Positions 13,701 to 55,838 of a DNA stretch of 64,000 bases are shown piece after piece. The notes under the pieces were generated by a model. The model was not told the DNA's origin. It did no database searches and saw only the letters and a program-made list of their open reading frames with translations. How positions within the stretch are numbered: position 1 is the stretch's first letter; each line of letters starts with the position of its first letter. Made by a program: the position numbers and the translations under genes. Where the stretch lies: positions 3,658,001 to 3,722,000 of the forward strand of contig OX595987.1 of the NCBI GenBank assembly GCA_951394045.1, written 5' to 3'. The stretch comes from Nitzschia sp. DOCU1. Its lineage: Eukaryota; Bacillariophyta; Bacillariophyceae; Bacillariales; Bacillariaceae.

Positions 13701-16234
13701 CAAGTAAGAAGCCGAGTTCGGAACCGTCGTTGGAGCCGAGCGCCGAACCCTCGAGGTCTTCAAGGCCAAGCAGAGAGCCAAGCTTGGAACCTTCCAAAGA
13801 ACCTTCTGAAAAGCCATCCACCGAGCCGAGCGATGAGCCTTCCAAGTCATCAAGGCCAAGTAAGAAGCCGAGTTCGGAACCTTCGTTGGAGCCGAGCGCC
13901 GAACCCTCGAAGTCTTCAAGGCCAAGCAGAGAGCCAAGCTTGGAACCTTCCAAAGAACCTTCTGAAAAGCCATCCACCGAGCCGAGCGATGAGCCTTCCA
14001 AGTCATCAAGGCCAAGTAAGAAGCCGAGTTCGGAACCGTCGTTGGAGCCGAGCGCCGAACCCTCGAAGTCTTCAAGGCCAAGCAGAGAGCCAAGCTTGGA
14101 ACCTTCCAAAGAACCTTCTGAAAAGCCATCCACCGAGCCGAGCGATGAGCCTTCCAAGTCATCAAGGCCAAGTAAGAAGCCGAGTTCGGAACCTTCGTTG
14201 GAGCCGAGCGCCGAACCCTCGAAGTCTTCAAGGCCAAGCAGAGAGCCAAGCTTGGAACCTTCCAAAGAACCTTCTGAAAAGCCATCCACCGAGCCGAGCG
14301 ATGAGCCTTCCAAGTCATCAAGGCCAAGTAGGGAGCCGAGTTCGGAACCGTCGTTGGAGCCGAGCGCCGAACCCTCGAAGTCTTCAAGGCCAAGCAGAGA
14401 GCCAAGCTTGGAACCTTCCAAAGAACCTTCTGAAAAGCCATCCACCGAGCCGAGCGATGAGCCTTCCAAGTCATCAAGGCCAAGTAAGAAGCCGAGTTCG
14501 GAACCTTCGTTGGAGCCGAGCGCCGAACCCTCGAAGTCTTCAAGGCCAAGCAGAGAGCCAAGCTTGGAACCTTCCAAAGAACCTTCTGAAAAGCCATCCA
14601 CCGAGCCGAGCGATGAGCCTTCCAAGTCATCAAGGCCAAGTAAGAAGCCGAGTTCGGAACCGTCGTTGGAGCCGAGCGCCGAACCCTCGAAGTCTTCAAG
14701 GCCAAGCAGAGAGCCAAGCTTGGAACCTTCCAAAGAACCTTCTGAAAAGCCATCCACCGAGCCGAGCGATGAGCCTTCCAAGTCATCAAGGCCAAGTAAG
14801 AAGCCGAGTTCGGAACCGTCGTTGGAGCCGAGCGCCGAACCCTCGAAGTCTTCAAGGCCAAGCAGAGAGCCAAGCTTGGAACCTTCCAAAGAACCTTCTG
14901 AAAAGCCATCCACCGAGCCGAGCGATGAGCCTTCCAAGTCATCAAGGCCAAGTAAGAAGCCGAGTTCGGAACCTTCGTTGGAGCCGAGCGCCGAACCCTC
15001 GAAGTCTTCAAGGCCAAGCAGAGAGCCAAGCTTGGAACCTTCCAAAGAACCTTCTGAAAAGCCATCCACCGAGCCGAGCGATGAGCCTTCCAAGTCATCA
15101 AGGCCAAGTAGGGAGCCGAGTTCGGAACCTTCGTTGGAGCCGAGCGCCGAACCCTCGAAGTCTTCAAGGCCAAGCAGAGAGCCAAGCTTGGAACCTTCCA
15201 AAAAACCTTCTGAAAAGCCATCCACCGAGCCGAGCGCGGAGCCTTCCAAGTCATCAAGGCCAAGTAGGGAGCCGAGTTCGAAACCTTCGTTGGAGCCGAG
15301 CGCCGAACCATCGAAGTCTTCAAGGCCAAGCAGAGAGCCAAGTTTGGCGCCTTCGAAGGAGCCGAGTCGAGAACCATCTCTTGAGCCCTCTAAAATGCCA
15401 TCCGACGAGCCAAGCAGCAAACCCAGTAGGGAGCCAAGCTTGGAGCCCTCCATGGAGCCTTCTGAAAATCCATCCACCGAGCCGAGCGCGGAGCCTTCCA
15501 AGTCATCAAGGCCAAGTAGGGAGCCGAGTTCGAAACCTTCGTTGGAGCCGAGCGCCGAACCATCGAAGTCTTCAAGGCCAAGCAGAGAGCCAAGCTTGGA
15601 GCCTTCCACGGAGCCGAGTCGAGAACCATCTCTTGAGCCCTCTAAAATGCCATCCGACGAGCCAAGCAGCAAACCCAGTAAAGAGCCAAGTTTGGAGCCT
15701 TCCCGGAAACCAAGTCTGGAACCTTCCCTTAAGCCTTCCACTAGGCCGTCGGACGAGCCAAGCAGCAAACCAAGTAGGGAACCAAGTAAATTCCCGAGTA
15801 CCAGCCCCTCTAAATCGGTATCACCCTCTTTGGAACCAAGCACCACAAGACAAGGCATATGCTATGATCGCTACACGGACCCCATTTTTTTAGCTGATAG
15901 TAATACCTGCACGCCGGGCGGAAGTCCAGGCGGAGGCGGAGGCGGCGGAAAATTTAACAGTTTTGGCTACCTACAAGGTGAAGAGTGTGGAAAAGGTGTG
16001 AAGTCGACGTCAAAATCGATCCCAGACTCCAATCCCGACCCAGATGGATTCGATCCCTTTTGCTGCAGTTGTTGTTGCGTCAGTGTAGGTGGTGGCAGTT
16101 CCAAAAAGGTTTGCAGCAACCGAATCGAGAGCAGTCAATGTGGTGAGATCCTTGACTTGCGCAGACTCGAGGGCGACCATTCGCTCATGGACGACGAAGA
16201 GGGTTTGCCGGCCTTCATGCGTCATTGGTTATGA
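10781..16234 (+). CDS. Secreted PSxxPS-repeat protein B, 1817 aa, with 22 near-identical 52-residue repeats
   Basis: Intronless paralogue of the gene at 5183 with the same architecture. A signal peptide ([13 protein letters not shown], cleavage near VVAA-DE) is followed by a charged leader with blocks shared with gene A ([28 protein letters not shown]). A Lys/Ser cluster of SSKGAK units lies at residues about 268-298. A huge EPS/RPS/KPS repeat region spans about 306-1688, and a Cys-rich domain ends [16 protein letters not shown]. The C-termini of both paralogues carry MDD-E-E-x-P-x-FMR. Repeats are enriched in phosphorylatable Ser and in Glu/Lys/Arg, so the chain is probably extended and polyampholytic. 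Secretion is well supported; a role in silica, wall or adhesive material is inference. Copy number in the assembly may be wrong if reads did not span the array. Confidence 0.85.
11830..15340 (+). repeat. 156-bp in-frame coding minisatellite, 22 copies
   Basis: The landmark aagcttgg recurs at 11908, 12064, 12220 and so on to 15184, every 156 bp without a slip, which gives 22 units of 52 codons. Units differ mainly at a few codons (KKPS, VPS or REPS after RPS; SEKPS or SENPS; SDEPS or SAEPS), and some adjacent pairs repeat as larger blocks, which points to unequal exchange or gene conversion. Because 156 is divisible by 3 and the unit lacks stops in several frames, long open frames appear on both strands; they are not genes. 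Confidence 0.95.
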
Positions 16235-17859: not shown

Positions 17860-20800
17860 TCAATGGTAGGATTGTGCGTTTCGCTGGTGAAGGCCATACC
17901 CTCCAAGGCAAGGGCCGCAGTAATCTTTCTTGTAGTATCGCATTACATCCGAGTCCGGTTCAGGAACGCAGTAGGTTTGGTATCCATCTTTGGCAGAATA
18001 GTGACAAACATGTACATTGTTGTTGGCATCACAAGGATAGTCGTCAGCCGAACAAAAGTGTTGAGTGCGATGGTCTCGAGATGGCTCTTCAGCAAGACCC
18101 ACCGCAACGTCCTCGGTGCTGTTTGGCTCGGCAACGTCCACCACATCCGGCTTGTCCTTCAGCAACCGTCTGCGCAGCATGGCGGCTGGCATGGCCGAGG
18201 GCTGAGACTCGGTTGTGAGGTGACGAGCAGCAGGGACTTCATCGTCGGGACATTTGGTTTCGCAATAAATCTTGAATGTATATTCAATCACTTCAGGACT
18301 CATTTCCAATGGTGGATGACAACACTCAGGCACTTCCGCATTTGTGTTGAAGCCAGGTTGGCCAGTGACCCAGAGGTTGACAACGGCCAAAGGAACGGCG
18401 TGCAAACAGTAGGCCGTGAACTCCACGTACTCTTCTTGTTGCAAATTTTGAGTTTCGTAACAATCATACCCGCCACTTGGTTTATCTGCAAACTGAGTAA
18501 AGATAGAAGAGACCGTGCTCTCGTAAGTGTTCTTGACAGCGAAACGAACAAACTCGGTACCCTGCTCCAAGATGATGATAGGAAGTTCAGGATATGGCTG
18601 TTCCATATCAGGAATGATCAAGACCACGTCGTCAGGGCAGACAGGCAAGGGAACATCGGTAGGAGCGGGGGTGACGGTAGGGGCAGGGGTAGGCTCGTAT
18701 GTCTGGCTGGGTGGGGCAAATCCAGCGGGAGATGGAGTCGCATCGGCGTCGTGGCAGATACCGAAGTTGGAGATTGCACCGACACCATTAAACTGCACCG
18801 ACACGCTGATGACATCTTCGACGTCCATGCTTCCTGGAAGAAGACCCAAGACGCTGTTCTCGGACATGGAAGGAATGGCGATGAGCTCAGTCGTACCATC
18901 TGACTTTGTGAAAACGACTTCACCACCATCCAAAACGTTGAAAACTGAAAGCTCAAGAATGAGTGCCGGAGCGTCGAAGTCGAAGACAATCTCACCACCT
19001 GCTTGGTTGGGCAACTGGTCGATCGAGTTTGATTCCTGGATAATCAAAACCTTGCCAAGACCTTCACAGTTTGCGGTCTCACCGCCGGCTCCCATTCCGA
19101 TGCCGCCGCATGCCACATTGGGGCTTCCAAAAGTTCCATCCACAAGATTGCCAGTTGAGTTGGTTGTATCCAAAGCCCTTGCCATGTTACCAGGAGTGTA
19201 ACCAGTATCTCCCGCAGCATAGGCATTGACGGTAAAACCATACCCAGCCCAAGACTGAGGATGAATGTAGCCATAAGCAGACCCGGCGGTTGCTCCGGTG
19301 GCTGTGGTCTCGAAATCGATATCCAGATAGTCGCATTCCTCATGCGTTGTTGGCTCGCATTGGGGTTCGCAGCTCATTTCAAAGCTATAGGAGACCATGG
19401 TAGTTGAGTTTGATGCCGCGCCAGCGCAAGCTTCGCATTCTTCTTCCTGGTAATTTTCTCCAATGTAGACGTTAATATCCAATCGGGCAAAATTGTCAAA
19501 GCAGACGAGAGTGTAAGTCAAATCTCGGTTCCCTTCAACCCCAATGTTTTCGTCACAATCGTGAGCCGTCTCTGACTGTTGGTAAAAGACGTTCAAAGCC
19601 CCAACTCCTGTTTGATTCCAGAGTTGTTTGATAACTATTTGCACGGTATCATTGTTCATGCTGACGATCTGCAAAGCACCTTCTGGGAAGTCGACTCCAG
19701 CGCCTTGCAAGGAAATAAAGATTGGGCCTGTTTCGATGCAAGGCCCATGGGGTGCTGCCGTGGGTTCGCCCGGCGCAGTGGTAGGTCCTACTGTTGGACC
19801 AGCTGTAGGCCCTGGGGTCGCCGTTGTTGCAGTTGGGCCGGCTGTGGGCCCTCCAGTGGGTCCAGGAGTTGCGGGCGTAACCGTTGGCCCAGCCGTAGGT
19901 CCTCCAGTCGGTCCAGGAGTCGCTGGTGTGACAGTTGGCCCAGCTGTAGGTCCGGCAGTGGGACCAGTCGTTGGGCTAGGCGTCGGTCCAACAGTTGGAC
20001 CCGCCGTTGGGCCTGCAGTGGGACCTGAAGTGGGCGATGGCGTTGCAACCGTTGGTCCGGCAGTTGGACCAGCAGTTGGACCCGCTGTTGGGCCTGCAGT
20101 GGGACCTGAAGTGGGCGATGGCGTTGCAACAGTTGGCCCAGCAGTTGGTCCAACAGTTGGACCCGCCGTTGGACCTGCAGTGGGACCTGAAGTGGGCGAT
20201 GGCGTGGCAACAGTTGGCCCAGCAGTTGGTCCAACAGTTGGACCCGCCGTTGGGCCACTGGTGGGACCTGAAGTGGGTGATGGTGTGGCAACAGTTGGCC
20301 CGGCCGTGGGTCCAACAGTTGGACCCGCTGTTGGGCCACCGGTGGGACCTGAAGTGGGCGATGGTGTGGCAGCAGTTGGTCCGGCCGTGGGTCCAACGGT
20401 TGGACCCGCCGTTGGGCCACCGGTGGGACCTGAAGTGGGCGATGGTGTGGCAGCAGTTGGTCCGGCCGTGGGTCCAGTAGTCGGTCCCGCCGTTGGGCCA
20501 CCGGTGGGACCTGACGTGGGCGATGGTGTGGCAGCAGTTGGCCCGGCAGTTGGTCCACCAGTCGGCGACGCTGTAGCAGCAGTAGGACCGGTCGTAGGAC
20601 CGGAGGTGGGGCCAGCAGTGGGACTAGTCGTCGGGCCAGTCGTAGGAGCAGATGTTTCCAAAGTGGGTCCACTGGTTGGTCCTGTCGTCGGGCCATCAGT
20701 TGGTCCTGCCGTCGGACCGACTGTAGGTCCTGAGGTCGGGGCCTGACTTGGATAGTAACTACCAGAGGGCGACGCAGAAGGCTCTTCCGTGACGCAATAC

Positions 20801-23800
20801 AAAGTGCATGGAATCTCAAAGTAATACTGCACCTTGCCATCAGCATCATCGGCAGGCGATTCACAGACCTCGCACTCTTCAGCTGGCACCGACTGGGTGT
20901 AGACGAAGATGCTGAACTTGGCAATATTGAACTCACTGTTGCAATAGGCAGTGTAGGTGAGCGTCTCGCCCTGGCTGATCCCCATCTTGGCTTCGCAGTC
21001 GTACGACGAAGCATTGACATCATAATTGACTGCAATAGCTTGAACTCCGGTCCACAAGTTCGTGACGACAACATCGACGTTGTTTCCAGTCAGGTTGGAA
21101 GTCACGATTGCGCCTTCTGGGAAGTTGATGCTCTCGTCTCCAATAACCTCCACTAACATTGGCTCTTCCTTCTCCTTACAGGGGGTCGGCGCTTGGCTGG
21201 CAGTAGGCTCCAATGTGGTCTCAGTTGGCCCCGCTGTAGGACTAGCCGTCGGCCCAGCAGTTGGTCCCGGCGTTGCGGGCGTGAACGTTGGTCCGGCAGT
21301 GGGGCCACCAGTTGGACCAGTTGTAGGGCCTGCTGTTGGTCCAGGAGTTTCAGGAGTAACAGTTGGGCCCGCCGTTGGGCCAGATGTAGGACCTGCAGTG
21401 GGCGATGGCGTTGCAACCGTTGGTCCGGCAGTTGGACCAGCAGTTGGACCCGCTGTTGGGCCTGCAGTGGGACCTGAAGTGGGCGATGGCGTTGCAACAG
21501 TTGGCCCAGCAGTTGGTCCAACAGTTGGACCCGCCGTTGGACCTGCAGTGGGACCTGAAGTGGGCGATGGCGTGGCAACAGTTGGTCCGGCCGTGGGTCC
21601 AACCGTTGGACTCGCCGTTGGGCCACTGGTGGGACCTGAAGTGGGTGATGGGGTGGCAACAGTTGGCCCGGCCGTGGGTCCAACAGTTGGACCCGCTGTT
21701 GGGCCACCGGTGGGACCTGAAGTGGGCGATGGTGTGGCAGCAGTTGGTCCGGCCGTGGGTCCAGTAGTCGGTCCCGCCGTTGGGCCACCGGTGGGACCTG
21801 ACGTGGGCGATGGTGTGGCAGCAGTTGGCCCGGCAGTTGGTCCACCAGTCGGCGACGCTGTAGCAGCAGTAGGACCGGTCGTAGGACCGGAGGTGGGGCC
21901 AGCAGTGGGACTAGTCGTCGGGCCAGTCGTAGGAGCAGATGTTTCCAAAGTGGGTCCACTGGTTGGTCCTGTCGTCGGGCCATCAGTTGGTCCTGCCGTC
22001 GGACCGACTGTAGGTCCTGAGGTGGGGGCCTGACTTGGATAGTAACTACCAGAGGGCGACGCAGAAGGCTCTTCCGTGACGCAATACAAAGTGCATGGAA
22101 TCTCAAAGTAATACTGCACCTTGCCATCAGCATCATCGGCAGGCGATTCACAGACCTCGCACTCTTCAGCTGGCACCGACTGGGTGTAGACGAAGATGCT
22201 GAACTTGGCAATATTGAACTCACTGTTGCAATAGGCAGTGTAGGTGAGCGTCTCGCCCTGGCTGATCCCCATCTTGGCTTCGCAGTCGTACGACGAAGCA
22301 TTGACATCATAGTTGACTGCAATAGCTTGAACTCCGGTCCACAAGTTCGTGACGACAACATCGACGTTGTTTCCAGTCAGGTTGGAAGTCACGATTGCGC
22401 CTTCTGGGAAGTTGATGCTCTCGTCTCCAATAACCTCCACTAACATTGGCTCTTCCTTCTCCTTACAGGGGGTCGGCGCTTGGCTGGCAGTAGGCTCCAA
22501 TGTGGTCTCAGTTGGCCCCGCTGTAGGACTAGCCGTCGGCCCAGCAGTTGGTCCCGGCGTTGCGGGCGTGAACGTTGGTCCGGCAGTGGGGCCACCAGTT
22601 GGACCAGTTGTAGGGCCTGCTGTTGGTCCAGGAGTTTCAGGAGTAACAGTTGGGCCCGCCGTTGGGCCAGATGTAGGACCTGCAGTGGGCGATGGCGTTG
22701 CAACCGTTGGTCCAGCAGTGGGGCCAGACGTAGGTCCTGCTGTTGGTCCAGGGGTGGCAGGTGTCACAGTAGGGCCAGCAGTTGGTCCGGAGGTAGGTTC
22801 AGACGTAGGACCGGAAGTAGGGCCAGCAGTGGGTCCGGCTGTTGGGGCAGGCGTTGCAGGTGTCACAGTAGGGCCAGCGGTTGGACCGGAGGTAGGCTCA
22901 GACGTAGGACCGGAAGTAGGGCCAGCAGTGGGGGTAGGGGTAGCAGGTGTCACAGTAGGGCCAGCGGTTGGTCCGGATGTAGGCTCAGACGTGGGACCGG
23001 AAGTAGGGCCAGCAGTAGGTCCGGCTGTTGGGGCAGGCGTTGCAGGTGTCACAGTCGGGCCAGCGGTGGGTCCGGATGTAGGTTCAGACGTAGGACCCGA
23101 AGTAGGGCCAGCAGTGGGTCCGACTGTGGGGGCAGGGGTAGCAGGTGTCATAGTAGGGCCAGCAGTTGGACCGGAGGTAGGCTTAGAGGTAGGACCGGCA
23201 GTTGGACTGGCAGTGGGTCCGGTTGTGGGGTTAGGGGTGGCAGGTGTTACAGAAGGTCCAGCGGTGGGTCCTGACGTTGGACTGGCAGTGGGTCCTGATG
23301 TTGGGGCAGGGGTAGCTGGAGTTGCAGTAGGGCCGGCAGTAGGCCCTGCGGTGGGACTGCTTGTTGGGGACCCCGAATAACATTCTTTCACCTTTGGGTT
23401 TTCTGGATTTAGCGGCAAAGGGCATGGTGGGTCGAACTCGTAGTTGTGGAACTCGGACCCCAAACCATTATGGAGCACGTCACCGTAAACCATCAAACGG
23501 CCATCTTGACCTGGCCAATGCATGTCAAGACCACCGAATGGAACAATGACGCTTCCGGGCATCTGGAGCCCACCTGCGGGTCCGAGTACTACTTTGGGAG
23601 CAGCATAGAAATTCCACAGCATGGCAGCCTTGAATCTAGGCGGGAACGCGTAGTTGTTGTTGCCTTGGTAGTCCCTCACACTGTAGAGCCCTTGAAGCAC
23701 AACTTCGTTCTTGATGGCGCCATTAGCGTCATACGGCGAAACATTAATGAGGATGGTCTTTCCTTCAAGACTGGCGTCCAATTCCAAAACGCGGAGGTCT

Positions 23801-28289: not shown

Positions 28290-30538
28290 TTATTTCTTTT
28301 GTTTGCTGGCACGCTTTTTCATTCGTTCTCGTAAGCTCAACTGGCGCTTCACTTTGTTTTTCTTCTCGCCTTCCGCTTTGGCTTGTGTCTGTTCCAACTC
28401 CCGTTGTTCTGCCAGCGCTTCGTTCTGACATCGACTGCAGAGCCGGGCTTCTCCGGACCGTCGATCTTCATAACACTTTGTGTCGGGCTTGCTCAATTTG
28501 GGAGGATTTGTAGCTGGCGGAGGAGGTGACCACCATTTGGGTGGTTCAATTTGACGCTTGGCAATATGCTTGGTGACCATTTCGACGTAATCCAGTAGAG
28601 CGCTCCGGGCCACGTACTTCTCGTAGAACTTGAGACAATTAGCGGCGATTTCGCGGCACTTGTCGTCATTGTTGCGGCACCAACGGATCTTTTCTTCCAA
28701 ATCGCTGAGATCGGCCTCCACGGGGACGTGATCGACCCACGGCTGCAGAAGGGGGAAATACCACATGCGGTCCGCCACTTGGCGCGGTGCCACTTTCAAA
28801 ATGACGGAGCCTAGGCGCATCATGAACCCATAACGACAGGCAGCGCAATGTCCATCCACATACACCAAATATTTGAACTTGCTTTGTTGATAAATGGGCG
28901 TAAAGTGATGTTTTCCAGCGGTAAACTCGAACTCTTTGGCGCGCAAAAACGTCATGGGATGATCGGCAGTCTTCTTATCGCGCAAATTCCATCCGACAAT
29001 GGCGGCATTCAAAAAGGGCTCCTCGCCGCCCTTTTCTGGATCGTCCTTCCATAAATGTGATAAGTATGCTACTTTCAAGCGTTGATTGTTCTCAATGGTA
29101 GTTCCACCGCCCGTAGCTGTCCCACGAAAGAAGGCCGTGGCAACGCGGTTTTCATCCCAGCCGCGTTCGAATTTGCGAAAGTTGGCTTCGGTAAATAAAT
29201 CACGGGGATTGCCAAATATGGGATAGCCTTCGTTGTCCTTCTCGAAAGAAATAAAGGTCTGGGGAAATACCAAACCACAAGCTCCCTCCCAATCTTCGGA
29301 ACTTGGTATTGGCAAGGAATTCACGAACGAAGGCGTTAGGGATCCCGGCTCATCGGCCAAAGAAGAAACAAAAGATGGAGTGCCTTACCTGGGCCAGGGA
29401 ATGTCCGTGAATCGATCTTCTGGTCCTGCATAAAAGCTCACAATCGGCGCGTACGTCTTGAACTTGTGTTCCGGCGCTAGATCCACATCTTGAGCGGGGT
29501 CTCGATCGTCCTTATCGAAAATAAATCCATATGGTTCTACCGGTTCTCCTCGCTCGACATTGACCTTGAGTTGTGGATAATCGCGTTTGTTGAGAAAGAA
29601 CTCACAATCTGGAATCTGCCGTTGATTGCAAGCTTCTGCCAAGGCATCTCGAAGTGGACTTAGGAATTGATCGCCCCAGTGTTGGAGTTTACTTGTATCC
29701 TGATCTTTTGAAAGCTCATTACAGATAATATTTCCATTAGCCCACCATTTACTCATGTCTGGCTCGACGTTTTCTTCTCGGTACAGACCCGCTTTCTGCG
29801 TATAGTAGGTATTCAGGGAGCCATCTCCTTCTATCGTTAGAGCCTGACTCCAGGTGTTGCGATAGTCCGAATTGGTAAAAGGGCAAAAGATACGGAGTTT
29901 GCCGTTCCGAATCATGACATAAATTCCACATTTCATGTGAAAAAAGAGATACTTCATTGTATTCAATACTGAAACTGGAGTTGTGCACTTGTGAAAGAGA
30001 AAGAATCAAATTGAGTTCGAGGTGGGAGATCATGGCGGTGGAGACCAGCACGACGACGGACCTTGTGAAAGGGCTGATTGAGCCTAAAGTTGATGGCATC
30101 CACCACTGGCTTGGCTGCCGTCTGCTCGTACATGTTTTTGGATGAATCGTCTGGCATAACACCATAAGATTGCGGGATCTTCGTTGCCGAGCTGGGCTCT
30201 TTTCGTGCTTGTTCGATCGCAGGAAGGAGAATCCGCTGGATTTGATCCCACGAAATCAATGTGGTAAAGATATGCCGCAAGTGTGGAAATTCTGGATTCG
30301 ATCCCCCATGAAACGCGTTGTACTCCCTCATGAATTTAAGACACTCATCTCGGGTTTCAAAACGTGGAACTCCATTCGGAAACTTGCTCGTGGCATCGAG
30401 CCAGGCCAAACTATCGCCTTTGGGACCAAAGATACCGCGAAACTCAGGAGGAGGATCGGTGGGAGGTGGGCGCCTGATGGAAACACCGTCGTCGTCGTCG
30501 TTCATGGTAGTATGATCTGCTGATGGAAATGAGACCAT
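28290..30538 (-). CDS. GT90/CAP10-type glycosyltransferase, three exons
   Basis: Exons 30538-30062, 29987-29389 and 29301-28290 sum to 695 codons plus stop, with all phases matching. The first intron is 74 bp (GTCCGT..CACAAG), the second 87 bp (GTAAGG..ACCAAG). Joining restores TDIPWPSSEDWEGA, characteristic of the CAP10/KDELC/POGLUT family. Further family features are the FFRGTATGGGT loop, PMTFLRAKEFEF, and the KYLVYVDGHCAACRYGFMMRLGSV core that binds the sugar nucleotide. The C-terminus is long, basic and Lys/Arg-rich, with CxxC-like Cys pairs. No signal peptide is visible from this start, so an upstream exon may be missing. Family members O-glycosylate secreted proteins or polysaccharides. 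The second intron nearly duplicates one in the next gene (30996-31088). Confidence 0.8.
29302..29388 (-). repeat. Introner-like intron copy 1 (in the glycosyltransferase)
   Basis: This 87-bp intron starts GTAAGGCACTCC and ends TTGCCAATACCAAG. From the 5' splice site through AATACC it matches the intron at 30996-31088 with only two substitutions and a one-base length difference in a T run. Flanking exons are unrelated. The ends form an imperfect inverted repeat: GTAAGGCA at the 5' side and TGCCAATAC at the 3' side. Confidence 0.85.
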
Positions 30539-30795
30539 GTTGCCGATGCTTTTGAGGATTTTTTGCACAACCCTGCGAGATACGCATACGCACTTGTGTA
30601 TGTAGTCTGCATAGGTATTTAATGAATATATGACGGCGCGATCAACTGATTAATTCGACTAGTCAAATTTACTTTCCCAGTGAAAAAATATTCTTGTAGC
30701 CGAAGTTCCCCCGCCAGATAGCTAGCGAGGGGGCAACTAGTAGTAGCAGAGAGGCACTACTACCAGGTAGGACCAAATTCATGAAATCATACCTT
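30539..30795. other. Short intergenic region
   Basis: About 260 bp between the CRAL-TRIO-like gene and the glycosyltransferase, both on the minus strand. It must contain the promoter of the glycosyltransferase. No clear motif was seen. Confidence 0.4.
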
Positions 30796-32183
30796 TTAAG
30801 AAGCTACTAATGAGTGGTCTTCACCGATCATGTGATAATCGCCCTCTCGTTTTTGCCGCTTGCGCGAGCCCTCTTCCTCCAAGCACTTTTCTATCCAGTT
30901 CAAGCGCTGCGTCATATCCTTAGTGCCGTCTTCTCTCATAGGGAAGGGGTGAATGCCCAAGCACGCTAGTTGATACATACACTCCTGGTAGGACCCTGTT
31001 AGAGGTATTGGCAAGGAATTCACGAACGAAGGCGTTAGGGATCCCGGCTCCTCGGCCAACGAAGAAACAAAAAGATGGAGTGCCTTACCTGTTAAAAAGC
31101 GTGTGCGCACAAGAACAGAACGACTTATAAACTTCAAGAACGCATTCACTCCTGCCTCCCACCATCTATCTGGTTCAAACACAAAATAGAAAGCCGAAAA
31201 TCGAATCGGTAGGATTTGTTCCAACTGGGCAATCTTCTGGCAAACCGGTAGGTTAAAGAGTTTAAGCTTCCCAACCAGCGTCGTGCTGGCCAGACCAATG
31301 TTCAGGAAATATCCTAAACGCACAAGGCCCATCTTTTGAACGTCTTCGTCCTCCTCTAGGGTTTTCATGACCATGTACCAATTAGCCCGAAGCTGCCATA
31401 CAAAAGCAAGAGAAACGCATCGTGAGGCACCCAAACATTCCTCTCCCCGGCGAACAAGTCTTCACCCTCACTTACGAGAGATCTAGCCTTACTGACCCAC
31501 CCCAGTGCGCCTGCGTTGGTCAAGTATACTCGTCTACCACACGAATCCATACCTGGCAGAATGGAGTGGGGGCCGCTTTTTAGGCACTCCAGATCCGTTT
31601 CGTTGAGATCCTGGATTGTAATGCGGCGACCCAAACAGTCTTCTCCCCACAGCAATCTCTTTTCTTCAAAGTACCTCATCATTCTCTTCGTTGCCTCTTT
31701 GGCATTGAATCGTTCACAACGCAGAAATTGTATTCGAAATGACGCACTGTTGACGTACGAGGGATGTTTTTGTTCCACTTGTCGCAGCAGAGTAAATGTT
31801 GGCAGCCTTTGAATCTCTTGCTCAAGCTCTCTCATGGCACGCTCTACATTCTCTGGAGACTCTTTGATGTTGTCCGTGGGCTCATGATAAAATGCACTTC
31901 CTTTCCGATTCCCTGAAAGGTCTGCCCACACCAGTTCTCTGTTTTCTCTCGACATGTCCTGAAGCTCCCTAGAAATCAACGGATGATCTGGACTGCACCA
32001 AATCTGAAAGCATGTCGAGTACTTTGTTGACGCATCCATGGATAGGCCGCCACTAGCATCGTCCAAGTGAGAGTCACCCAACGTAGATCCCGCCGTCGAT
32101 GACTCGTCGTCTTCAGAGTCATTCGATACCGATACGGAGCGTCGATGATGAGCGAGTGCCTCTTGATTGATTCCTTCCATCAT
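30796..32183 (-). CDS. CRAL-TRIO/Sec14-like protein, copy 1
   Basis: Exons 32183-31476, 31392-31089 and 30995-30796 encode 403 aa, with introns of 83 and 93 bp. The N-terminal half has a disordered Ser/Asp-rich start, then FQIWCSPDHP and RELVWADLSGNR blocks, and the CRAL-TRIO N-terminal signature FLRCERFNAKEATKRMMRYFEEK followed by ITIQDLNETDLECLKSG. The C-terminal half (RANWYMVMKTLEEDE, LPIRFSAFYFVFE, GSYQECMYQLACLGI) corresponds to the lipid-binding CRAL-TRIO fold. Such proteins bind phosphoinositides or other hydrophobic ligands; this diatom subfamily is uncharacterised. A tandem paralogue lies at 37067-38508 with both introns at identical positions. Its second intron carries the sequence shared with the glycosyltransferase. 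Confidence 0.8.
30996..31088 (-). repeat. Introner-like intron copy 2 (in CRAL-TRIO gene 1)
   Basis: This 93-bp intron starts GTAAGGCACTCC and ends AATACCTCTAACAG. The hexamer TAACAG occurs both as the last bases of the upstream exon and as the last bases of the intron, forming a direct repeat around the shared core like a target-site duplication that supplies the 3' splice site. The paralogue at 37252-37367 has an intron at the same position with unrelated sequence. Confidence 0.85.
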
Positions 32184-32849
32184 TGATTGCTACAACTTAG
32201 GGCCAGTTGACTGTTTTGGTACCTGCTTCTTCCGAGTTGTGTCATCGTCAAATGCTACCGCGTCGGGCAACAATGATGATGAGCTCTATCAAAGGCATGA
32301 AGGTTTCTGACCCCACTGCCTTTTTCGCTTAGCGATACTGGGGTGTGTCTGTACAGAAAGTGCGTGGGAGTGGTGATGGAAGTGATTTCCATGGTTGAAG
32401 GGCATGAGGCCTACTTAGGGTCGATCTCGGTTTCCCCCTTGGGAATTCGGGCGTATTCAAATTAAGACGAGTCAACATAGGGAAATAATATGCCTTATCG
32501 AACGAAAGGCGAGAATTCGCGACATTTGGCCTATCGGCCTCTCGATGGTGAGCGACTACAGTATCGTACTTTGGGGGTTATTAAGAGGTCTTATTTTTTA
32601 ACGCTGCCGCTCCGATCGCATCGGCAAGCCAATACGTCGGTCGACCCGCGTTCCCGGCGGATCGGAATCCGCGAGGACTATCTACTGTCCGCCCCATTAT
32701 TTTTATTTGATGTTCGGGGGTTGTTTTCTTGGCAATTTTCTAGTACCTGTGGCCGAGAAAAAAGGGGAGGGAAAAAAGGAAATTTAAGAAGGGGACGCGT
32801 GAGGGGACGCCATTTGCAGCACTAAAACTCCATAGCGACAGACAGTAGG
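32184..32849. other. Intergenic with dispersed short repeats
   Basis: Holds the promoter of the CRAL-TRIO gene. The blocks gcatgaggcctactta (32402) and cgactacagtatcgtac (32552) recur at 35350 and 35214 beyond the decayed retroelement fragment. An open frame at 32490-32825 has no recognisable content. Confidence 0.4.
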
Positions 32850-33420
32850 GCTAGTAATAGTACCTACGCCGCTCACCAGACACCTGGTGTTAGTAGTAGT
32901 AGTGGCTAGTAGCTGCTGTGACGACCTACTATTACTACTACTAGAGATAGCCAGTAGTAGTCATCATATGCCGTGCTGTTACTAGCACTACTACTAGTAC
33001 TAGTACTAGTAGTGCCTATGACTGCCACCGTCGCAGGTAGGACGATGCACCGCCGAAGGCTTCCGTGGTGCTTTCCAGTCCTCGTGGCAGTAAAAGTACT
33101 ACTAGTTGTAGCTGCAGCAGGCCATTAGCTGCCTTTCTACTAGCGCTAGTACAACAACAAGAAAAGCATAGTACTACTAGTACTAGCTAGGAGTGCTGGT
33201 AGTAGTACGCTTAGCTAGTAGTTGAAGGAGTACCTCGCCAGGGGTTGTACTACTACTAGGTATCATAGCACCAGCACTGGTCCTCCTCCTCGTTTGATAC
33301 GTGTCGTGGTCGTCCTCGTCCTCTTGCTGCCAGCAAAATCACTAGTAGTACTACTACTAGTAGTAGCTAGTAGTAGCAGTATACTAGCTATTGTTAGTTG
33401 AGCCACTGCTACTTTCCCAC
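32850..33420. repeat. Degenerate CTA/TAG trinucleotide-rich region
   Basis: Many short runs of (tag)n, (cta)n and actagt across about 570 bp, none long and perfect. It looks like an old, decayed microsatellite. Open frames within it are composition artefacts. Confidence 0.8.
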
Positions 33421-33729
33421 CTATTAGTATGTAAAAGGAGAGAAGAGTAGCTATCGTATGACTATCGCATTGACGGAGTACTGTAAGGGCAACCGCGCCC
33501 TCTTGCTTCCACGTGGAGAAGAGGATGGCTTTCGCTCTTGTTTGATAAGCCCTTGCGATAACCACGATAACCATTTAGCTAAGTTTTCGTCAGAGTGGGC
33601 GACGTTTTTAATAGGTTATGTTGTCTATTTTGGCTTGCGATAACCGGCCACAGCGTTGAGAAGATTGCCGTTTTCTTGGTGTTTTTGTTCGTTTGGTGGA
33701 TTGCTCCTTTTCTTTCTTTTTCTGATTTA

Positions 33730-35255
33730 TCGTTTCTTTTCTAGGGTGGCGTTGGCGGTGGTGGTGGGTTGGCTTCTCTTGCACGAATGCTGCGACGGAT
33801 AGCTGGCTAATTGAGATTGATCCAGTTCTGCAAAGGTAGGTTGTCATCAGGCGTTGTGGCCAGGTGTGCTTCCACTGATGGAAGGAAGATGTATCTGTCG
33901 ACGTCCCGCATGTTCGGTCTTTGCACGTATAGTAGGTTGAGTTCACGATGAATCTGACGGCATTGTCATTCCTTAATATCAGCTGGAGTGCTTCCAAATC
34001 TGACCTCGTTCCGAGATTTCCAAATTTTTAACCACCATGTGACGCCGTGTGTTGCGAGTGATTTGGACCATGCGTGTCCTGAGGTTCCTGTCCCCGTGCT
34101 GTTGGTTGTTGATAGGTGATCTTGTTGAAGACGGCTCCAGCGGGCTGAGAGGCGTCCACGGAGTGGCTGATCCCATCCCATTTCATTTTGTTCCCGAACC
34201 AATTGGTGGTATTTCTCAGGATACAGAGCGGGAGGTAGAGGGGCGCCGATCTCGATAAGCCATTGTTCCATGCCTTCTTTCATGATCTTAATAAGCCACT
34301 GGTTGCTTGATAATCGAGGGACGGATAGGATGTCTTCGATGCTCTTGAGGTAGTCCGTATGCCATGTGGCAGCCGTGTTTCCAGGGCACCTCACGATATG
34401 ATTGTTGTCTTCCATTTCAGCATTGCAGGAGAAACACGATGGGTCTTTCCTCTTATCGTTATGGTGTGCAATGTGACCTGTCGGTGCGTGGCGGAACAGA
34501 TGTTTTACCAAAGTTGACTGATGGGTGCAGTGGGCCGAGAGGGCGCCACTGTGGGCGGCCCAGTCGACGCTGTCGGCCAGGTATGGGTCCCAATCGAATC
34601 GTCGGCTGAGGTAGGATTTCAAATAGGGCCATGTCGCGGCGTCTTGAATTTCTGTCTTGAAGTTAGCGGAGATGGTTCCTTGTTTGCTGTCCAAGGTGGC
34701 CCCAGTGGAAGGAAAGTGATAAGCTGTGGGGACTGGGTCCAGGTTCTCGTGGAGATATTGGAGGGCTAGAGCACGGGATGCTGTGTTGATTTGTGCAGGG
34801 ACAGAGATGGGTCCTGGTGGTTGCGTGTCGGTTGTGTGGAAGATGCTGTGGCATGCCCGGATACGACCCCGAACCCCTTTGAGGGAGAAATGGAGGGCGT
34901 TGGTCACATCCCAATCTGGCCACAGAGTGTTGCTTGGGACTTCATACGAGTGCCTGTGCAGGTTGAATACCACTCTCGGAGTTCTTGAAGGGAGAATGGT
35001 GTTTCCAAGTGAGAGAGGAGATGGCGTTCCCATGGGGCCATGGCGGCAACGACGGCATGCAGATCGGTGGGTAGTGGAACGGCGTTGTTCGCTGGAGGGA
35101 CAATAGGCGTCCAGTGATCCAGGCGTAGTGTTGTGGACGGGAATGCTATTCAAGTGATGGATGCGGGGACACTGTCGTCGGGTAGGTGGTTGCACGGCGT
35201 TCCAGCTATGGTGTGCGACTACAGTATCGTACAGTACAGCATATACCGTCGGCAA
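33730..35255 (-). pseudogene. Decayed non-LTR retroelement-type fragment (C-terminal part)
   Basis: A 429-codon minus-strand frame (35255-33966) continues in another frame to about 33730, so it is frameshifted near 33980. It contains CFSCNAEMEDNNHIVRCPG, a Cys/His arrangement like the zinc-binding motif after the reverse transcriptase of LINE-type ORF2 proteins, then an EQNEMGWDQPLRGRLSARW block and WWLKIWKSRNEVRFG. I associate this combination with the C-terminal end of LINE-like polyproteins in diatoms, from family knowledge only. No reverse transcriptase domain is present, so it is a fragment. Confidence 0.45.
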
Positions 35256-35533
35256 CTAGACGACCAATTGGATTCAACGTTCTTAACAGACAGGCTCAAC
35301 CAAAAGGCATATCAAGAACCATTCATTGTGATAATGCTTTTGGTAAATCGGCATGAGGCCTACTTAAGGTCGATCCTCTAGGGTTAACAACTATGGAGTC
35401 CTTTGGAATACGGGCCTATCATGCGCTATTCCACCGTATTTTCCTCCTTCTTCGCGCCGTGCGAGGCAATTGTGCAAACAATGCATGCAGCATGGCAAAT
35501 TTTCCACACTGACGGATGAGATTTTGATTAGCT

Positions 35534-35558
35534 CGATTCCGCGCGAAGCGCGGAATCG
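35534..35558. repeat. Perfect 11-bp inverted repeat with 3-nt loop
   Basis: CGATTCCGCGC, loop gaa, GCGCGGAATCG. A hairpin of this length and GC content is unlikely by chance in this region, but no function is evident. Confidence 0.8.
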
Positions 35559-35919
35559 CTTTCTGGTAAACTAAGATCCTTGCTACTCTTCTTGCCGAGA
35601 CAGCCACGAGGATTGCTTTGGATCTCTCTGAAAGATCTGCAAGCTGCATGCTCCTCGAGCTGTATGACTACATTCACTCAACGAATAACACCACTACTCT
35701 AGCTAGCTAGATCTGCGAGAGCAATAGCGATCATGCCAGCCACATCACTGCTAATGTTCTTGCTCTGTCTTGTTATGTTACTTTATGACTATAGCGGCGG
35801 CGGGGGCGTCGGCGTCAACGACGCCAGTGCTAGCCGGAGCATTATCATTAACATTACGCTACTTCACGGCCCCAGTAGGCGACGACGCAAGTACTATCGG
35901 TAGCTAGTAGAGCACGCGC

Positions 35920-36185
35920 TTTCGTCACCCTAGATTTCGCAATGCACGCTTTTCGGAACACAATATTTCGTAAGACGCGATTTCGCACCACTCGCTTTCG
36001 TAACACTACGCGATTTCCTAAGACTTCACAAGACGCAATTTCGTACAACAAGATTTCATAAGAAGCCCTTTCGCACCACAACGCGATTTCGCAAGACGCG
36101 CTTTCGTAACTCCAGTGATTTCCCGAGATTTCACAACACGCAGTTTCGTAACACACTATTTTGCAACCACGCGATTTCGGAACAG
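35920..36185. repeat. Degenerate short tandem array with core (g/c)(a/c)tttcg(t/c)aa
   Basis: About 17 occurrences of atttcg, ctttcg or close variants in some 270 bp at irregular 12-25 bp spacing, often followed by taac, caag or cacc. The minus-strand open frame over it (35854-36204) only reflects this repetition. Confidence 0.75.
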
Positions 36186-36262
36186 CCGCGTCCGCGTTCG
36201 CCACTCTTTGGTTATTGTTGTGTTATTGTGCGTGGTTCCGAAGCAACGCGATGCGCGGGTGA

Positions 36263-36375
36263 AGCTAAATTCGTAGCTCTGCGTACATACTTATGCTAAA
36301 TTTGAAGCTCTGCGTGGAATACTTATGCTAAATTTGAAGCTCTGCGTAGAATACTTATGCTAAGTTCCAAGCACT
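36263..36375. repeat. 32-bp tandem repeat, about 3.5 copies
   Basis: The motif acttatgcta recurs at 36289 and 36321, and acttatgc again at 36353, each 32 bp apart, with the intervening aatttgaagctctgcgt conserved and the last copy diverged. Confidence 0.85.
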
Positions 36376-37066
36376 GCGCGCCGAATCGACTTCGACCTCC
36401 ATAGTATTTTTCATTTCCCCATCCGTCATTGTGGCAAGTTACCCTGCAGCATGTTGCGGCCATCGCTTGGATTTCGCCGTTTCCATTTGGATATGGTGCT
36501 ATTACATGATGGTCAATCGCGTTCCTTCCGAAATGCACTCCTACTACCGGTAGTAGAAAAACTCCGCCTGACCCGATAGGGACACCAGCACCAGCAAGGA
36601 AATACAGGACAGGCTGAAACATGATGAGTAGTAGCATCTTTGCAACCTACCGCTACCAGCACTTGTCCGCGCTGGTACTACTACTAGTATGCTTGTTGTT
36701 GTTGCAACCCTGCTGCTAGCTAGCACCAGTTTAGGCCAGCAGAACAACAAGCCCGCCCTAGTAGTATCGTACTAGAAGAAGAAGGTTGTTCAGCAGCATT
36801 CAGGTGCCAGCCTTGATTGATCATACTAATTTGACGGAATCCAGAAGAATAGGGTAGCGACACTCGAGATGGTTGGGCTGCAAGGGAACAAACAAGGGCG
36901 TGCACGAGGTTTGCTTTGGTGGTAAAAACGCCAAAAAACCTACTATCTTCCTCAGCGAGCGTGATGCACCGCAACAAGAACGACATCGACAGTGTAGGTC
37001 GTGATGCACATCCAGCACCACTACTACCATCCTGACAAGAAATAGTCGTCGTGCACAACCAATCCT

Positions 37067-38508
37067 CTACGCCGACGAGATTTCCATCCGCGCATCCTCC
37101 CTTCGTTGACGTTTGCGTGATCGTCCCTCTGCCTCACAACAAGATTCCACCCAGGCCAAATGCTCCGTCATGTCCATGGTACCGTCTTCCCCGATAGGGA
37201 AATCGACGATTCCCAGACACGCTAGTTGATATCTGCACTCTTGGTACGATCCTAGAAGACCCGGTGAAAAGAGAGAAACGTCATTGGCGCGTGTGTTGGC
37301 TAACATAGAAGAAGCGAGCCAGGGAAATTCGCTGCTGGCTGGTGGTGATAAAGAAGCATGAACCTACCTGACAATAGACGCGTGCGGACCCTGACGGCGC
37401 TGCTGAGAAGCGCCAAAAAAACATTGATGGCAGAGTCGAACAATCTGGGCTCGGATACGATGTACACCGCTGAAAAGCGTATCGGAAGAATGTTGCTGAA
37501 TTGAGAGAGCTTTCGGAAAATCCCGGGGTCGAGGAGATCGCCACTACCCGGACTTGGCTTATAATTCAATAGATAACCAAGGCGAATCACGCCCATCGTT
37601 TGAACGTTTTCATCGTCCTCAAGTGTTTTCATGATCATGTACCAATTTGCTCGGATCTAGTGTCGATACAACAGGGATCCTTCATGATTAGCAAAACATG
37701 GATCAACAATAGCAACCTTGCACGGCCTTCACTCGCTACTTACGATCGACGTTGGATTAGAGCATTTCATGGCTCCGCGGTTTGTCAGATATATTCGCCT
37801 ACCACCACTGTCGACGTTCGGGGTAATAGAATGCGCTCCTGATCTAAGGTAGGCGACGTCTTCCTCATCAAGATCCAGCATTGAAATCTCGCGGCCCAAA
37901 CATTCTTCTCCCCACAGCAAATTCTTTTCTTCAAAATATCTCATCATTCTTTTCATAGCCTCCTTTGCATTGAAACGCTCGCAACGCAGAAATTTCAATC
38001 GAAATGAAACATTGTTGACGTACTCCGGGTGCTGAAGCTGAACTTTTCGTAGCAATGTAAAGGTTGGCAAGCGCGAAATTTCAACTTCCAGCTCTTGCAT
38101 TGCACGTTCCACATTGGTTGGAGTCTCCCTGATACTTTCCGCAAGTTCTTGATAGTACATGGAGTCCCTCCTGTTGCCTGACAGGTCCGACCAGACCAGT
38201 TCTCGGTTTTCTCTTGACATTGTCTGTAAATCATTTGCAATCATCGGATGACCTGGGTTACACCAAATCTGGAACGACGTCAGGTATTTTTGCGATTCGT
38301 CTTCGACCGAAGTAAAATTTTCGGAAGAACGTGATGCCTTGGTCTCTTTTGCGACGACGGCATCAGACGTTTTGGCGCTCTCTACCTGATCGACCTGATC
38401 GTAATTGAGGCGTGCGGAAATCCTTTGGTCCTCCATTCTTCCCGAAACTTGTTCTGGTTCGGTAATAACAACGTTTGCTGGGGGGTCGCTGGCTCTTCCG
38501 CCATCCAT
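37067..38508 (-). CDS. CRAL-TRIO/Sec14-like protein, copy 2
   Basis: Exons 38508-37744, 37656-37368 and 37251-37067 encode 412 aa, with introns of 87 and 116 bp. The same blocks as copy 1 are present: FQIWCNPGHP, RELVWSDLSGNR, FLRCERFNAKEAMKRMMRYFEEK, IRANWYMIMKTLEDDENV, LPIRFSAVYIVSEP and GSYQECRYQLACLGI. Both introns interrupt the same codons as in copy 1 but have unrelated sequence. The N-terminal 80 residues are diverged and hydrophilic. A basic C-terminal stretch (RSRKRQRRED) resembles that of copy 1 (GSRKRQKREG). The ligand is unknown; a lipid-binding role is inferred from the family. Confidence 0.8.
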
Positions 38509-54200: not shown

Positions 54201-55838
54201 GATCATCAACGCAAGTATCTGGAGGTCAGAAACAGCGCATTGCGATTGCTCGAGCATTGCTTCGAAAACCCAAGGTACTTCTCTTGGATGAAGCAACTTC
54301 TGGTAAGTGATCGACTTGAGCAGTTTGATTGATTTCATCGCCCCATGTCTAATTTTCAATTTTCTTGATTTCAAGCTTTGGATAGTGAATCCGAGCAAGT
54401 TGTACAAGAAGCCTTGGACAAAATCATGGCGGATATGACCCAAACTACCATTGTGATCGCCCATCGGCTCTCCACAATCCGAAACGCCGATCGCATCGCT
54501 GTGATTGATCATGGAAGGCTTCGAGAACTTGGCAGCCACGATGAGCTCATGGCGTTGCCCAATGGAAAGTACAAGCGTCTACACGATCTTCAGAATCTAG
54601 ACATGATTGCGAAAAAGGACAAGAAGGACGACAAGGAAGAGGACAAACATGATCACGAGCACGATGGAGAGCACAAGGACGAAGTCGACGCGGACGACTC
54701 CGAAACCAAGCTGAGCAAAGAAGAAGAAAAGAAGTACGCGGAACGTGCCCGCCTCTTGGCCAAAGGCGATGGCTACTATTTCCTGGTAGGGTCCTTTGGC
54801 GCCGTGTTGGCTGGTCTAATGTTTCCGGCATGGGGTTTCATCTTTGCCTACATGGTGCAAGTCTTATACTATCGCGTTGACGGCTGCGACGATAGCCAAG
54901 TCCCCCCCATTGCGTCGTACCCTGAGTTTGAGACTTGTCAGGACTATTGGGACGACGTCGCTGACTATATGAAAGACTTATCCTTCAAGGTTTTTTATGG
55001 TTTGCTATGCCTCATGGGCTCGTCAATGATTGGCAACGTTTTGATGTTCTACGGATTCGGAACCGCCACGGAACGTATGAATAAGCGCGTTCGTGATGCG
55101 GCGTTTTCAAACTTGATTCGGCAAGAAGTCTCTTATTTCGATGTTCGATCCATTGGTACCATTACCTCCCAGCTGGCAGATGACGCTGCGTTGATCCATT
55201 CGTTCTCTGGTCAGCCTATCCGCATGTTCGTCATGAACATGTCAAGCGTACTTGTTGGAATCGTTGTGGCATTTGTATACATGTGGCCCTTTGCGCTTCT
55301 CTCCTTTGGATTGCTACCCTTTATGAGTATTGGCAAGATGCTGGAAATCCAAACATTTATGGGTGACGAGATGAAGTCACACCAAAGTTCCAATCCGGAT
55401 GATTTGCCTCCCAACTCTTCTGGCGGTATCATGGTGGAATCCTTGCTGAACATTCGCACTGTCGCCTCCTTGACGATTGAGGAGGAACGCGTGGAGGAAT
55501 TCCAGGTCGCGTTGGACCGTGAGGAACCCCACCCTGTCCGACAGAACATGATCAAGGGAAGCACAGGTGGTATTTCCCAGCTGGTTCAAATGTGGGGCAT
55601 TGGTTTAATGTTTTGGTTTGGCGGCTGGCTTTTGTTCCGATTCCCCGAAGACTACGATTTCAATGATATGCTGATTTCCATGTTCGGTCTCATGTTTGGC
55701 TTGACGGGCATTGGCATTGCCATGGCCGACTTGGCGGATAGCGAAAAGGCCAAGGCAGCGGCGCATCGCATCTTTGATTTGATTGATCGCGAATCCAAGA
55801 TTGATCCGTTGAGTGATGCGGGAAAGAAGTTGAATTAG
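51219..55838 (+). CDS. ABC-B (MDR-type) transporter with order TMD-NBD-NBD-TMD
   Basis: Seven exons (51219-51483, 51577-51634, 51712-52784, 52860-53147, 53231-53853, 53921-54302, 54376-55838) sum to 4152 bp, 1383 aa, and every junction restores a known motif. TMD1 spans roughly residues 45-430. NBD1 has [38 protein letters not shown] and the [10 protein letters not shown]-loop. A Ser-rich linker leads directly to NBD2: [38 protein letters not shown] and [12 protein letters not shown]2 follows, ending [23 protein letters not shown] and stop, exactly where another NBD normally begins. Full-length MDR proteins are TMD-NBD-TMD-NBD. Both ATPase sites look intact. Introns are 93, 77, 75, 83, 67 and 73 bp. 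Substrate unknown; membrane location certain from the segments. Confidence 0.85.

Follow-up and report, generated by a model that had tools for sequence, protein, structure and literature searches.

Genes and introns at the locus

The window analyzed here is a 64,000-nt stretch of contig OX595987.1 of the diatom Nitzschia sp. DOCU1 (positions 3,658,001 to 3,722,000), in which three minus-strand genes are of interest. The first had been labeled a glycosyltransferase in an earlier note on this DNA; its predicted 695-aa protein matches PF05686 (E 3.4e-18), and the gene is hence referred to as GT90. Our model of GT90 comprises exon 1 (30062..30538), exon 2 (29389..29987), and exon 3 to the stop codon (28290..29301), with predicted intron 1 (29988..30061; 74 nt, phase 0) and intron 2 (29302..29388; 87 nt, phase 2, containing an in-frame TAA) between them. 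An intron 1 end at 29952 was rejected, because homologues have 12 more residues at this point (HKCTTPVSV...), which places the end at 29988. The protein of an early model (683 aa) was used for homologue retrieval, with the intron-2 site being unaffected, and the corrected 695-aa protein was used for the Pfam and homologue insertion tests.

The second gene, CRAL-TRIO 1 (30796..32180, ends set by eye), encodes 402 aa in three predicted exons (32180-31476, 31392-31089, and 30995-30796). Its intron 2 (30996..31088; 93 nt, phase 1) is the probable donor of the sequence discussed below. The third gene, CRAL-TRIO 2 (37067..38508, ends likewise by eye), lies 6 kb from CRAL-TRIO 1 and is its tandem paralogue, with a longest DNA match of 73% over 420 nt. 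Intron 2 of CRAL-TRIO 2 (37252..37367; 116 nt) interrupts the homologous codon in the same phase, between VRTRFLT and GSYQEC, as compared with VRTRLLS and GSYQEC in CRAL-TRIO 1, and the paralogue was used to date this intron position. No Pfam match at E<=1e-3 was obtained for the CRAL-TRIO assignment, and the name is therefore kept merely as the label of the earlier reader. Stable RNA structure, a feature given for fungal introner-like elements in a 2012 review (PMC3443670), was sought in three introns and not found (z = 0.67, 0.65, and -0.64).

An intron sequence common to two unrelated neighboring genes

The earlier note had described the same sequence as intron 2 of both GT90 and CRAL-TRIO 1, and its coordinates, minus-strand orientation, and reported similarity proved correct: 88 nt are common to the two, with 2 substitutions and 1 one-base indel (genome-wide E = 2.6e-32). 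The local match reads CAG, then, across the exon-intron border, GTAAGGCA, and continues to TTGCCAATACC, with the 5' edge of the shared segment lying 3 nt within the exon in both genes (29305..29391 in GT90, from the exon 2 CAG up to AATACC; 31004..31091 in CRAL-TRIO 1). At the other end, the match stops short of the 3' splice sites, as the note had also observed, by 3 nt in GT90, where the copy ends in AATACC plus AAG, and by 8 nt in CRAL-TRIO 1. The two genes share a strand, with 1.7 kb between the intron copies, and their exons are indeed unrelated, in that the next-best similarity between them has a bit score of 23.8, which is noise, against 142 for the intron match.

The note had taken one intron sequence in two unrelated adjacent genes as a pointer to intron gain, and the homologues of GT90 bear this out. 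Among 216 retrieved homologues, the intron-2 site lay outside 56, and all of the 160 that cover it showed no net insertion. Both GT90 intron sites were continuous in 17/17 rows of lgn, ena, or jgi source among P0001-P0067 that lie on contigs of 10 kb or more; P0001-P0007 are GT90 relatives at 80-87%. The name of the Nitz4 entry holds the numbers 5902 and 7917, which, if they are gene ends, give 2016 nt, that is, 671 codons plus a stop in one exon. Proteins of 'lgn' source can be unspliced open reading frames, as illustrated by P0121 (96% to CRAL-TRIO 1), which runs into intron 1. A more distant GT90 homologue, P0130 (70% identical), starts with LSIFKLINH followed by SEDWE, resembling intron read-through about one codon from the GT90 intron-2 site, and so may have an intron there, which counts against a recent gain in GT90; P0141 and P0165 have similar starts 8-10 residues further on. 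When GT90 exon 3 with read-through intron was used as the query, the best 120 of 293 matches contained no near-identical one; among these 120, the top match reached 82% across 93% of the query, and the highest identity was 89% over 46% (P0089). GT90 intron 2 looks like a recent gain, as judged from the homologous proteins. Its borders, CCCAG before and CCAAG after, match at 4/5 positions.

Splicing of both copies is predicted from reading frames and homologues. A different reading is that the insertions are not introns: GT90 would be a gene in decay into which DNA was inserted twice, or else the segment in CRAL-TRIO 1 would encode an in-frame peptide. CRAL-TRIO 1 intron 2 is a multiple of three and free of stop codons in frame, and a 221-aa open frame was reported for the matches flanking it. 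However, removal of the introns from GT90 leaves a 695-aa frame that aligns insertion-free to homologues at both sites, GT-AG borders are present, and the paralogue intron at the same codon is 116 nt long, which is not a multiple of three. We consider this reading highly improbable.

A second apparently new intron in GT90

GT90 intron 1 also appears to be new, since all 111 homologues that cover its site (105 others do not reach it) showed no net insertion. Moving its end to 29988 exposed an exact 10-bp direct repeat, CTTTCACAAG, with one copy at the exon 1 end (30062..30071) and the other at the intron 1 end (29988..29997). Such a repeat exceeds chance (approximately 1.5e-5 given the shared AG), and in a control in which exon ends and intron ends of six introns were exchanged, 30/30 pairs matched at no more than 4 nt. 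The intron body (30001..30056; 56 bp) is 86% identical to C6:3128832-3128887 on another contig (E 4.5e-11), a position antisense within a 642-aa ORF with helicase-associated domains. Wider queries from the GT90 intron 1 and C6 sides found only each other, and the direction of this match can be read either way, which counts against the explanation that we favor below.

Tests for a mobile introner family

The earlier note had proposed an introner-like mobile family with inverted terminal repeats (TIRs) and target-site duplications (TSDs). A published introner survey retained only families in which 4 or more similar introns occur in genes whose proteins are not similar (PMC9860276); here, the genome search that the note had suggested yielded two copies in the whole assembly, with no third copy found across the 52.08-Mb genome. 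The proposed inverted repeat, GTAAGGCA/TGCCAATAC, was matched or beaten by 2380/20000 shuffles, and by 3546/20000 when GTAAG was held fixed. Exact repetition of the 6 nt TAACAG on both sides of CRAL-TRIO 1 intron 2 was confirmed (approximately 0.4% by chance given the shared AG), but its value as a sign of fresh insertion is weak, because the paralogue has an intron at this position as well. Two extra matches to the 3' 21-mer with 2 mismatches, on C5 and C36, were found against none in the control; they represent one common sequence, and on C5 the match spans 25 nt, within a frame that, by eye, we take to be superoxide-dismutase-like.

An intron common to two unrelated genes, the weak symmetry of its ends, the TAACAG repeat, and the extra 21-mer matches are what would be expected of an introner-like DNA transposon. 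In the same survey, TIR evidence was given for 72/177 and TSD evidence for 49/130 families (PMC9860276). The copy number in this assembly nevertheless contradicts a family, the inverted repeat is not significant, the borders of the new site match at 4/5 positions, short of a clean TSD, and the extra matches share one sequence, of which the copy that was read is part of a putative enzyme frame. We therefore regard a mobile family as scarcely credible, and local copying between the neighboring genes, which the note had given as its alternative, is favored.

Direction of copying

The copying may have run the other way: the GT90 intron came from elsewhere and then overwrote a pre-existing CRAL-TRIO 1 intron 2. 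No similarity between introns 2 of CRAL-TRIO 1 and 2 was detectable, with shuffled sequences scoring as high in 1131/2000 global and 1618/2000 local alignments, and TAACAG stands on both sides of the CRAL-TRIO 1 copy, a possible sign that an insertion or replacement had affected this intron too. In addition, the 2012 review states that in one study, which dealt with 95 homologous introns, only 11-24% may be in novel positions (PMC3443670). However, introns 1 of the two paralogues, for which no replacement is suspected, were also unalignable (278/2000 global, 1008/2000 local), and a mismatched control pair scored better than both CRAL-TRIO pairs (44 and 25 of 2000). The test is thus noisy, and the missing similarity carries no weight. 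Because this order of events also requires two events, not one, we judge it quite unlikely.

Three genome queries served as controls, and the introns available for comparison are accordingly very few. When CRAL-TRIO 2 was searched together with both of its introns, it found itself and three CRAL-TRIO 1 stretches at exon positions; a region of 1.75 kb in which two introns are predicted had long matches to paralogous genes, which are uninformative on intron copies; and with a query of 20 kb, dispersed repeats swamped the result, with 37/204 candidates scored.

Probable copying from the neighbor during DNA repair

That GT90 has twice received DNA that looks copied points to the repair of breaks, in which the copied filler happened by chance to be spliceable. 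The inserts have traceable matches in the CRAL-TRIO 1 intron and antisense in the C6 ORF, and we infer the direction of copying, its DNA-level nature, and splicing of the product. GT90 intron 2 is probably a recently gained spliceosomal intron that arose as a DNA-level copy of the neighbor's intron during repair. Most of CRAL-TRIO 1 intron 2 would have been copied into a CAG/T site of the GT90 exon, most likely at the DNA level, as a templated insertion during repair of a break or a stalled fork. The repair would have entered the donor at the shared CAG and left it near the shared CC. The copied piece would have supplied the 5' splice site CAG/GTAAGG, the branch-point-like CCTAAC, and the pyrimidine stretch, whereas the target itself would have contributed the final AAG. 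GT90 intron 1 would have arisen earlier in a similar way, its filler being the piece that matches the C6 ORF and its 10-bp repeat the trace of a staggered break.

The CAG common to donor and target supports this explanation. Against it, the GT90 copy lacks the 8 nt with which the donor intron ends, AAG instead of CAG demands a substitution or an untemplated base, and the 5' border of the copy lies exactly at the splice site, as an RNA route would also predict. Furthermore, repeats at intron borders do not set new introns apart in every organism: in Drosophila, repeats of at least 5 bp were given for 25% of the gained introns and 26% of the conserved ones (PMC3443670), and another study described 213 introns, all of which had repeats at their borders or close to them (PMC11782384).

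In such an RNA route, the spliced CRAL-TRIO 1 intron would have been reverse-spliced into GT90 mRNA, reverse transcribed, and recombined into the gene, followed by a small 3' deletion. The shared segment starts exactly at the 5' splice site, both copies are introns, and both lie on one strand; according to the 2012 review, moreover, reverse splicing is the model most often invoked where one intron is homologous to another (PMC3443670). A sharp 5' edge is, however, also expected from microhomology, given the CAG common to donor and target. A full 3' end would be expected of the RNA route, and the intron was not transferred whole with both its ends, although a later deletion is possible. GT90 intron 1, with its 10-bp repeat and non-intron body, fits break repair better, and we hold the RNA route to be unlikely.

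Relation to known routes of intron gain

Templated repair from the neighbor resembles gains attributed to double-strand break repair, in which relatives lack the intron, short direct repeats mark the borders, and the insert can come from elsewhere (PMC3443670, PMC4202315). It differs in that one insert is most of the adjacent gene's working (predicted) intron, and in that two inserts with traceable matches occur in one diatom gene. Intron transposition likewise yields a new intron with the sequence of another, unrelated gene's intron, and GT90 intron 2 is homologous to an intron of another gene at a previously intronless site, with P0130 as the caveat; here, in contrast, the 3' end was not transferred, donor and recipient are neighbors, and the junctions suggest DNA-level copying rather than reverse splicing. 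Introners share near-identical introns in unrelated genes (PMC9860276), yet only two copies were found here, with no significant TIR and, at the new site, borders that match at 4/5 positions and so give no clean TSD. Transfer of introns from one paralogue to another also moves intron sequence between genes (PMC3443670), but GT90 and CRAL-TRIO 1 are not paralogues, and their exon similarity is at noise level. Tandem genomic duplication would leave a duplicate of the gene's own adjacent exon; the matches here lie in another gene and another contig, and within GT90 intron 1 duplicated adjacent exon sequence is limited to the 10-bp border.

Significance

High lineage-specific intron gain is known for diatoms. 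Recent intron gains with a traceable source are rare: among unambiguous gains, the 2012 review counts 14 intron transpositions, in Mycosphaerella and Oikopleura, and 5 break-repair gains (PMC3443670). The introner survey does not use the word 'diatom' anywhere in its main text (PMC9860276), and no such diatom case was evident from title or abstract start among the matches listed in open-licence literature. GT90 offers two apparently recent gains in one gene, for both of which a likely source can be named and the junctions can be read, and hence a concrete test of how diatom introns originate becomes possible. We tentatively raise the possibility, which we think doubtful at present, that faulty break repair in this diatom lineage regularly pastes copied bits of the genome into exons, among them the greater part of a ready-made intron of a gene nearby, and that the copies that carry splice signals persist as introns. 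If true, such regular pasting during repair would generate new introns without the help of a mobile element or of reverse splicing.

Intron Sequence Shared by Adjacent Genes

GT90, a glycosyltransferase gene of 695 aa (minus strand; exons 30538-30062, 29987-29389 and 29301-28290; PF05686, E 3.4e-18), adjoins the gene that the earlier note named CRAL-TRIO 1 (402 aa, minus strand, 30796-32180) in a source genome that we infer to be that of a diatom near Nitzschia. The earlier note had claimed that the predicted second introns of these unrelated genes (GT90, 29388-29302; CRAL-TRIO 1, 31088-30996; both minus strand) are one sequence, and this was borne out: an 88-nt stretch (CAG/GTAAGG...CCAATACC) is common to both, with two substitutions and one 1-base indel in the alignment, and gene-to-gene alignment detected no similarity above noise beyond it. 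The same note had proposed an introner-like mobile family, for which high copy number is required; the introner survey PMC9860276 retained families with at least four introns. Such copy number was not found by DNA and pattern searches of the genome (52,080,636 bases, 63 contigs), and the proposal did not hold up, the DNA search giving at least two matches rather than many copies. Patterns for the 5′ part, middle and 3′ part were searched separately with up to three mismatches, each against a control. The 5′ part gave two exact sites, and 16 sites at three mismatches versus 22 in the control; the middle gave two sites versus none; and the 3′ part gave two exact and two two-mismatch sites versus none. 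The two-mismatch sites are one sequence, on contigs C5 and C36, and that on C5 is a 25-nt match within a superoxide-dismutase-like reading frame.

Origin of the GT90 Introns

On comparison of the sequences, we consider it fairly probable that both GT90 introns were gained during break repair, with intron 2 copied from CRAL-TRIO 1, because two inserts of apparently copied DNA are accompanied by a 10-bp repeat of the staggered-break type and both are absent in the closest relatives retrieved. Intron gain by break repair is a model described in PMC3443670 and PMC4202315. At the left junction of intron 2, the donor has CAG in common with the intron-free target (...TGGCCCAG/TTCCG...); at the right junction, the copy ends with ACC and then AAG, versus CCCAG in the target, a 4/5 repeat. 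These would represent microhomology on the left and a short imperfect repeat on the right at the repair junctions. Since an insertion in an exon would persist only if it can be spliced out, selection would explain the retention of an insert that came with its own 5′ splice site and branch site. That the GT90 copy begins exactly at the splice site counts against break repair and would also be expected from reverse splicing of the CRAL-TRIO 1 intron into GT90. Reverse splicing should carry over the donor's complete 3′ end, yet this end is absent from the copy; a later small deletion could have hidden its transfer. CRAL-TRIO 1 intron 2 also has no in-frame stop and a length that is a multiple of three, which speaks against the break-repair reading, and the set of introns that served as controls is tiny.

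For intron 1 (74 nt, 30061-29988, minus strand; gene model corrected against homologues), CTTTCACAAG at the end of exon 1 is repeated at the intron end as an exact 10-bp direct repeat (intron with repeat, 29988-30071). Exact border repeats in the six introns of GT90, CRAL-TRIO 1 and CRAL-TRIO 2 are 10, 2, 0, 6, 2 and 0 nt, and 30 exchanged border pairs of the same introns gave at most 4 nt. Border repeats are a counterpoint to break repair because conserved introns have them too: PMC3443670 gives 26% of conserved versus 25% of gained Drosophila introns, and PMC11782384 reports that every one of 213 introns had repeats at its borders or close to them. In the intron 1 body, 56 nt match C6:3128832-3128887 at 86% (48/56; E 4.5e-11, chance being judged by E-value), a stretch that lies inside, and antisense to, an ORF of 642 aa carrying helicase-associated domains. 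Queries with longer stretches of GT90 and of C6 recovered only each other.

Age of the CRAL-TRIO Intron Position

CRAL-TRIO 2 (38508-37067, minus strand), the tandem paralogue, has introns at both positions homologous to those of CRAL-TRIO 1, and its second intron shares both the codon and the phase (1), so the intron-2 position predates the duplication, unless both copies gained an intron there separately. TAACAG borders the CRAL-TRIO 1 copy on both sides, as the earlier note had seen. Such a repeat has a probability of ~0.4% by chance given a shared AG, so that replacement or re-insertion there is possible, a point against our reading; the position shared with the paralogue weakens the note's reading of it as a target-site duplication. 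The CRAL-TRIO 1 protein has at least 107 genome matches including its own exons (103 of 183 candidates scored) yet no Pfam family at E<=1e-3; CRAL-TRIO 1 and 2 belong to a large family of genes that have diverged.

Several repeats were also observed in the window. Between the two paralogues lies a dispersed repeat (33670-34951, parts at 32570-32732 and 34951-35211) with copies of 89-95% on C1, C2, C6, C9, C11 and C27. A CTA/GTA-rich stretch of 536 bp (32931-33466) matches units on C2, C6 and C9 (in tandem, spacing ~827) and on C8 at 98% identity. A ~950-bp unit (35494-36445) has copies of 87-98% across many contigs; those at C1:1898520-1905150 form a tandem array with a spacing of 948. Arrays of 156-bp period form two blocks ~4.7 kb apart (6430-7293 and 11671-15654), most units of the second being 96-100% alike; 19823-23367 holds two related 81-bp-period arrays and a third with units near 99 bp. 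Gene region 52700-54450 has two diverged copies (76%) on C3, at C3:3529021-3530754 and at C3:3542757-3544489, and C2, C7, C12 and C16 hold more distant relatives.

Absence of the GT90 Introns in Homologues

The 216 homologous proteins (120 of 368 and 120 of 293 matches, overlapping) showed no net insertion in alignments at the intron-2 site in 160/160 covering it (157 at 0, three at -2) or at the intron-1 site in 111/111 (110 at 0, one at -3), some being annotated or transcript-derived, so that a spliced intron could be hidden in them; the 56 and 105 left out, respectively, start downstream of or too near the site. Among the matches listed, the closest reach 87% identity, and named ones include Nitzschia sp. 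Nitz4 (80%) and Nitzschia inconspicua (77%); if the two numbers in the name of the Nitz4 homologue mark the ends of its gene, they are consistent with a single exon. Introns can be read through in lgn proteins, P0121 continuing into CRAL-TRIO 1 intron 1, and P0124 from ena seems to do likewise. All 17 of the lgn/ena/jgi proteins among P0001-P0067 on contigs >=10 kb run uninterrupted across the two sites. Three of the 56, P0130, P0141 and P0165, start within ~10 residues of the intron-2 site with 4-10 unmatched residues, as would be expected if they had been read out of an intron. P0130 (70% identity over 92% of the query) starts LSIFKLINH/SEDWE, ~1 codon from intron 2, and the apparent read-out of P0141 and P0165 lies 8-10 codons further on; these are possibly independent intron gains in one short stretch. 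We read the apparent P0130 intron as a separate gain, because better-matching homologues (P0001, P0002, P0003 and P0005; 81-87%) are continuous there; P0130 lowered our confidence in the break-repair reading slightly.

Break repair and intron transposition are both already-known routes of intron gain, and no description of a diatom case of such gain was found among the open-licence papers listed. GT90 represents a new, unusually legible case of intron gain in a diatom.
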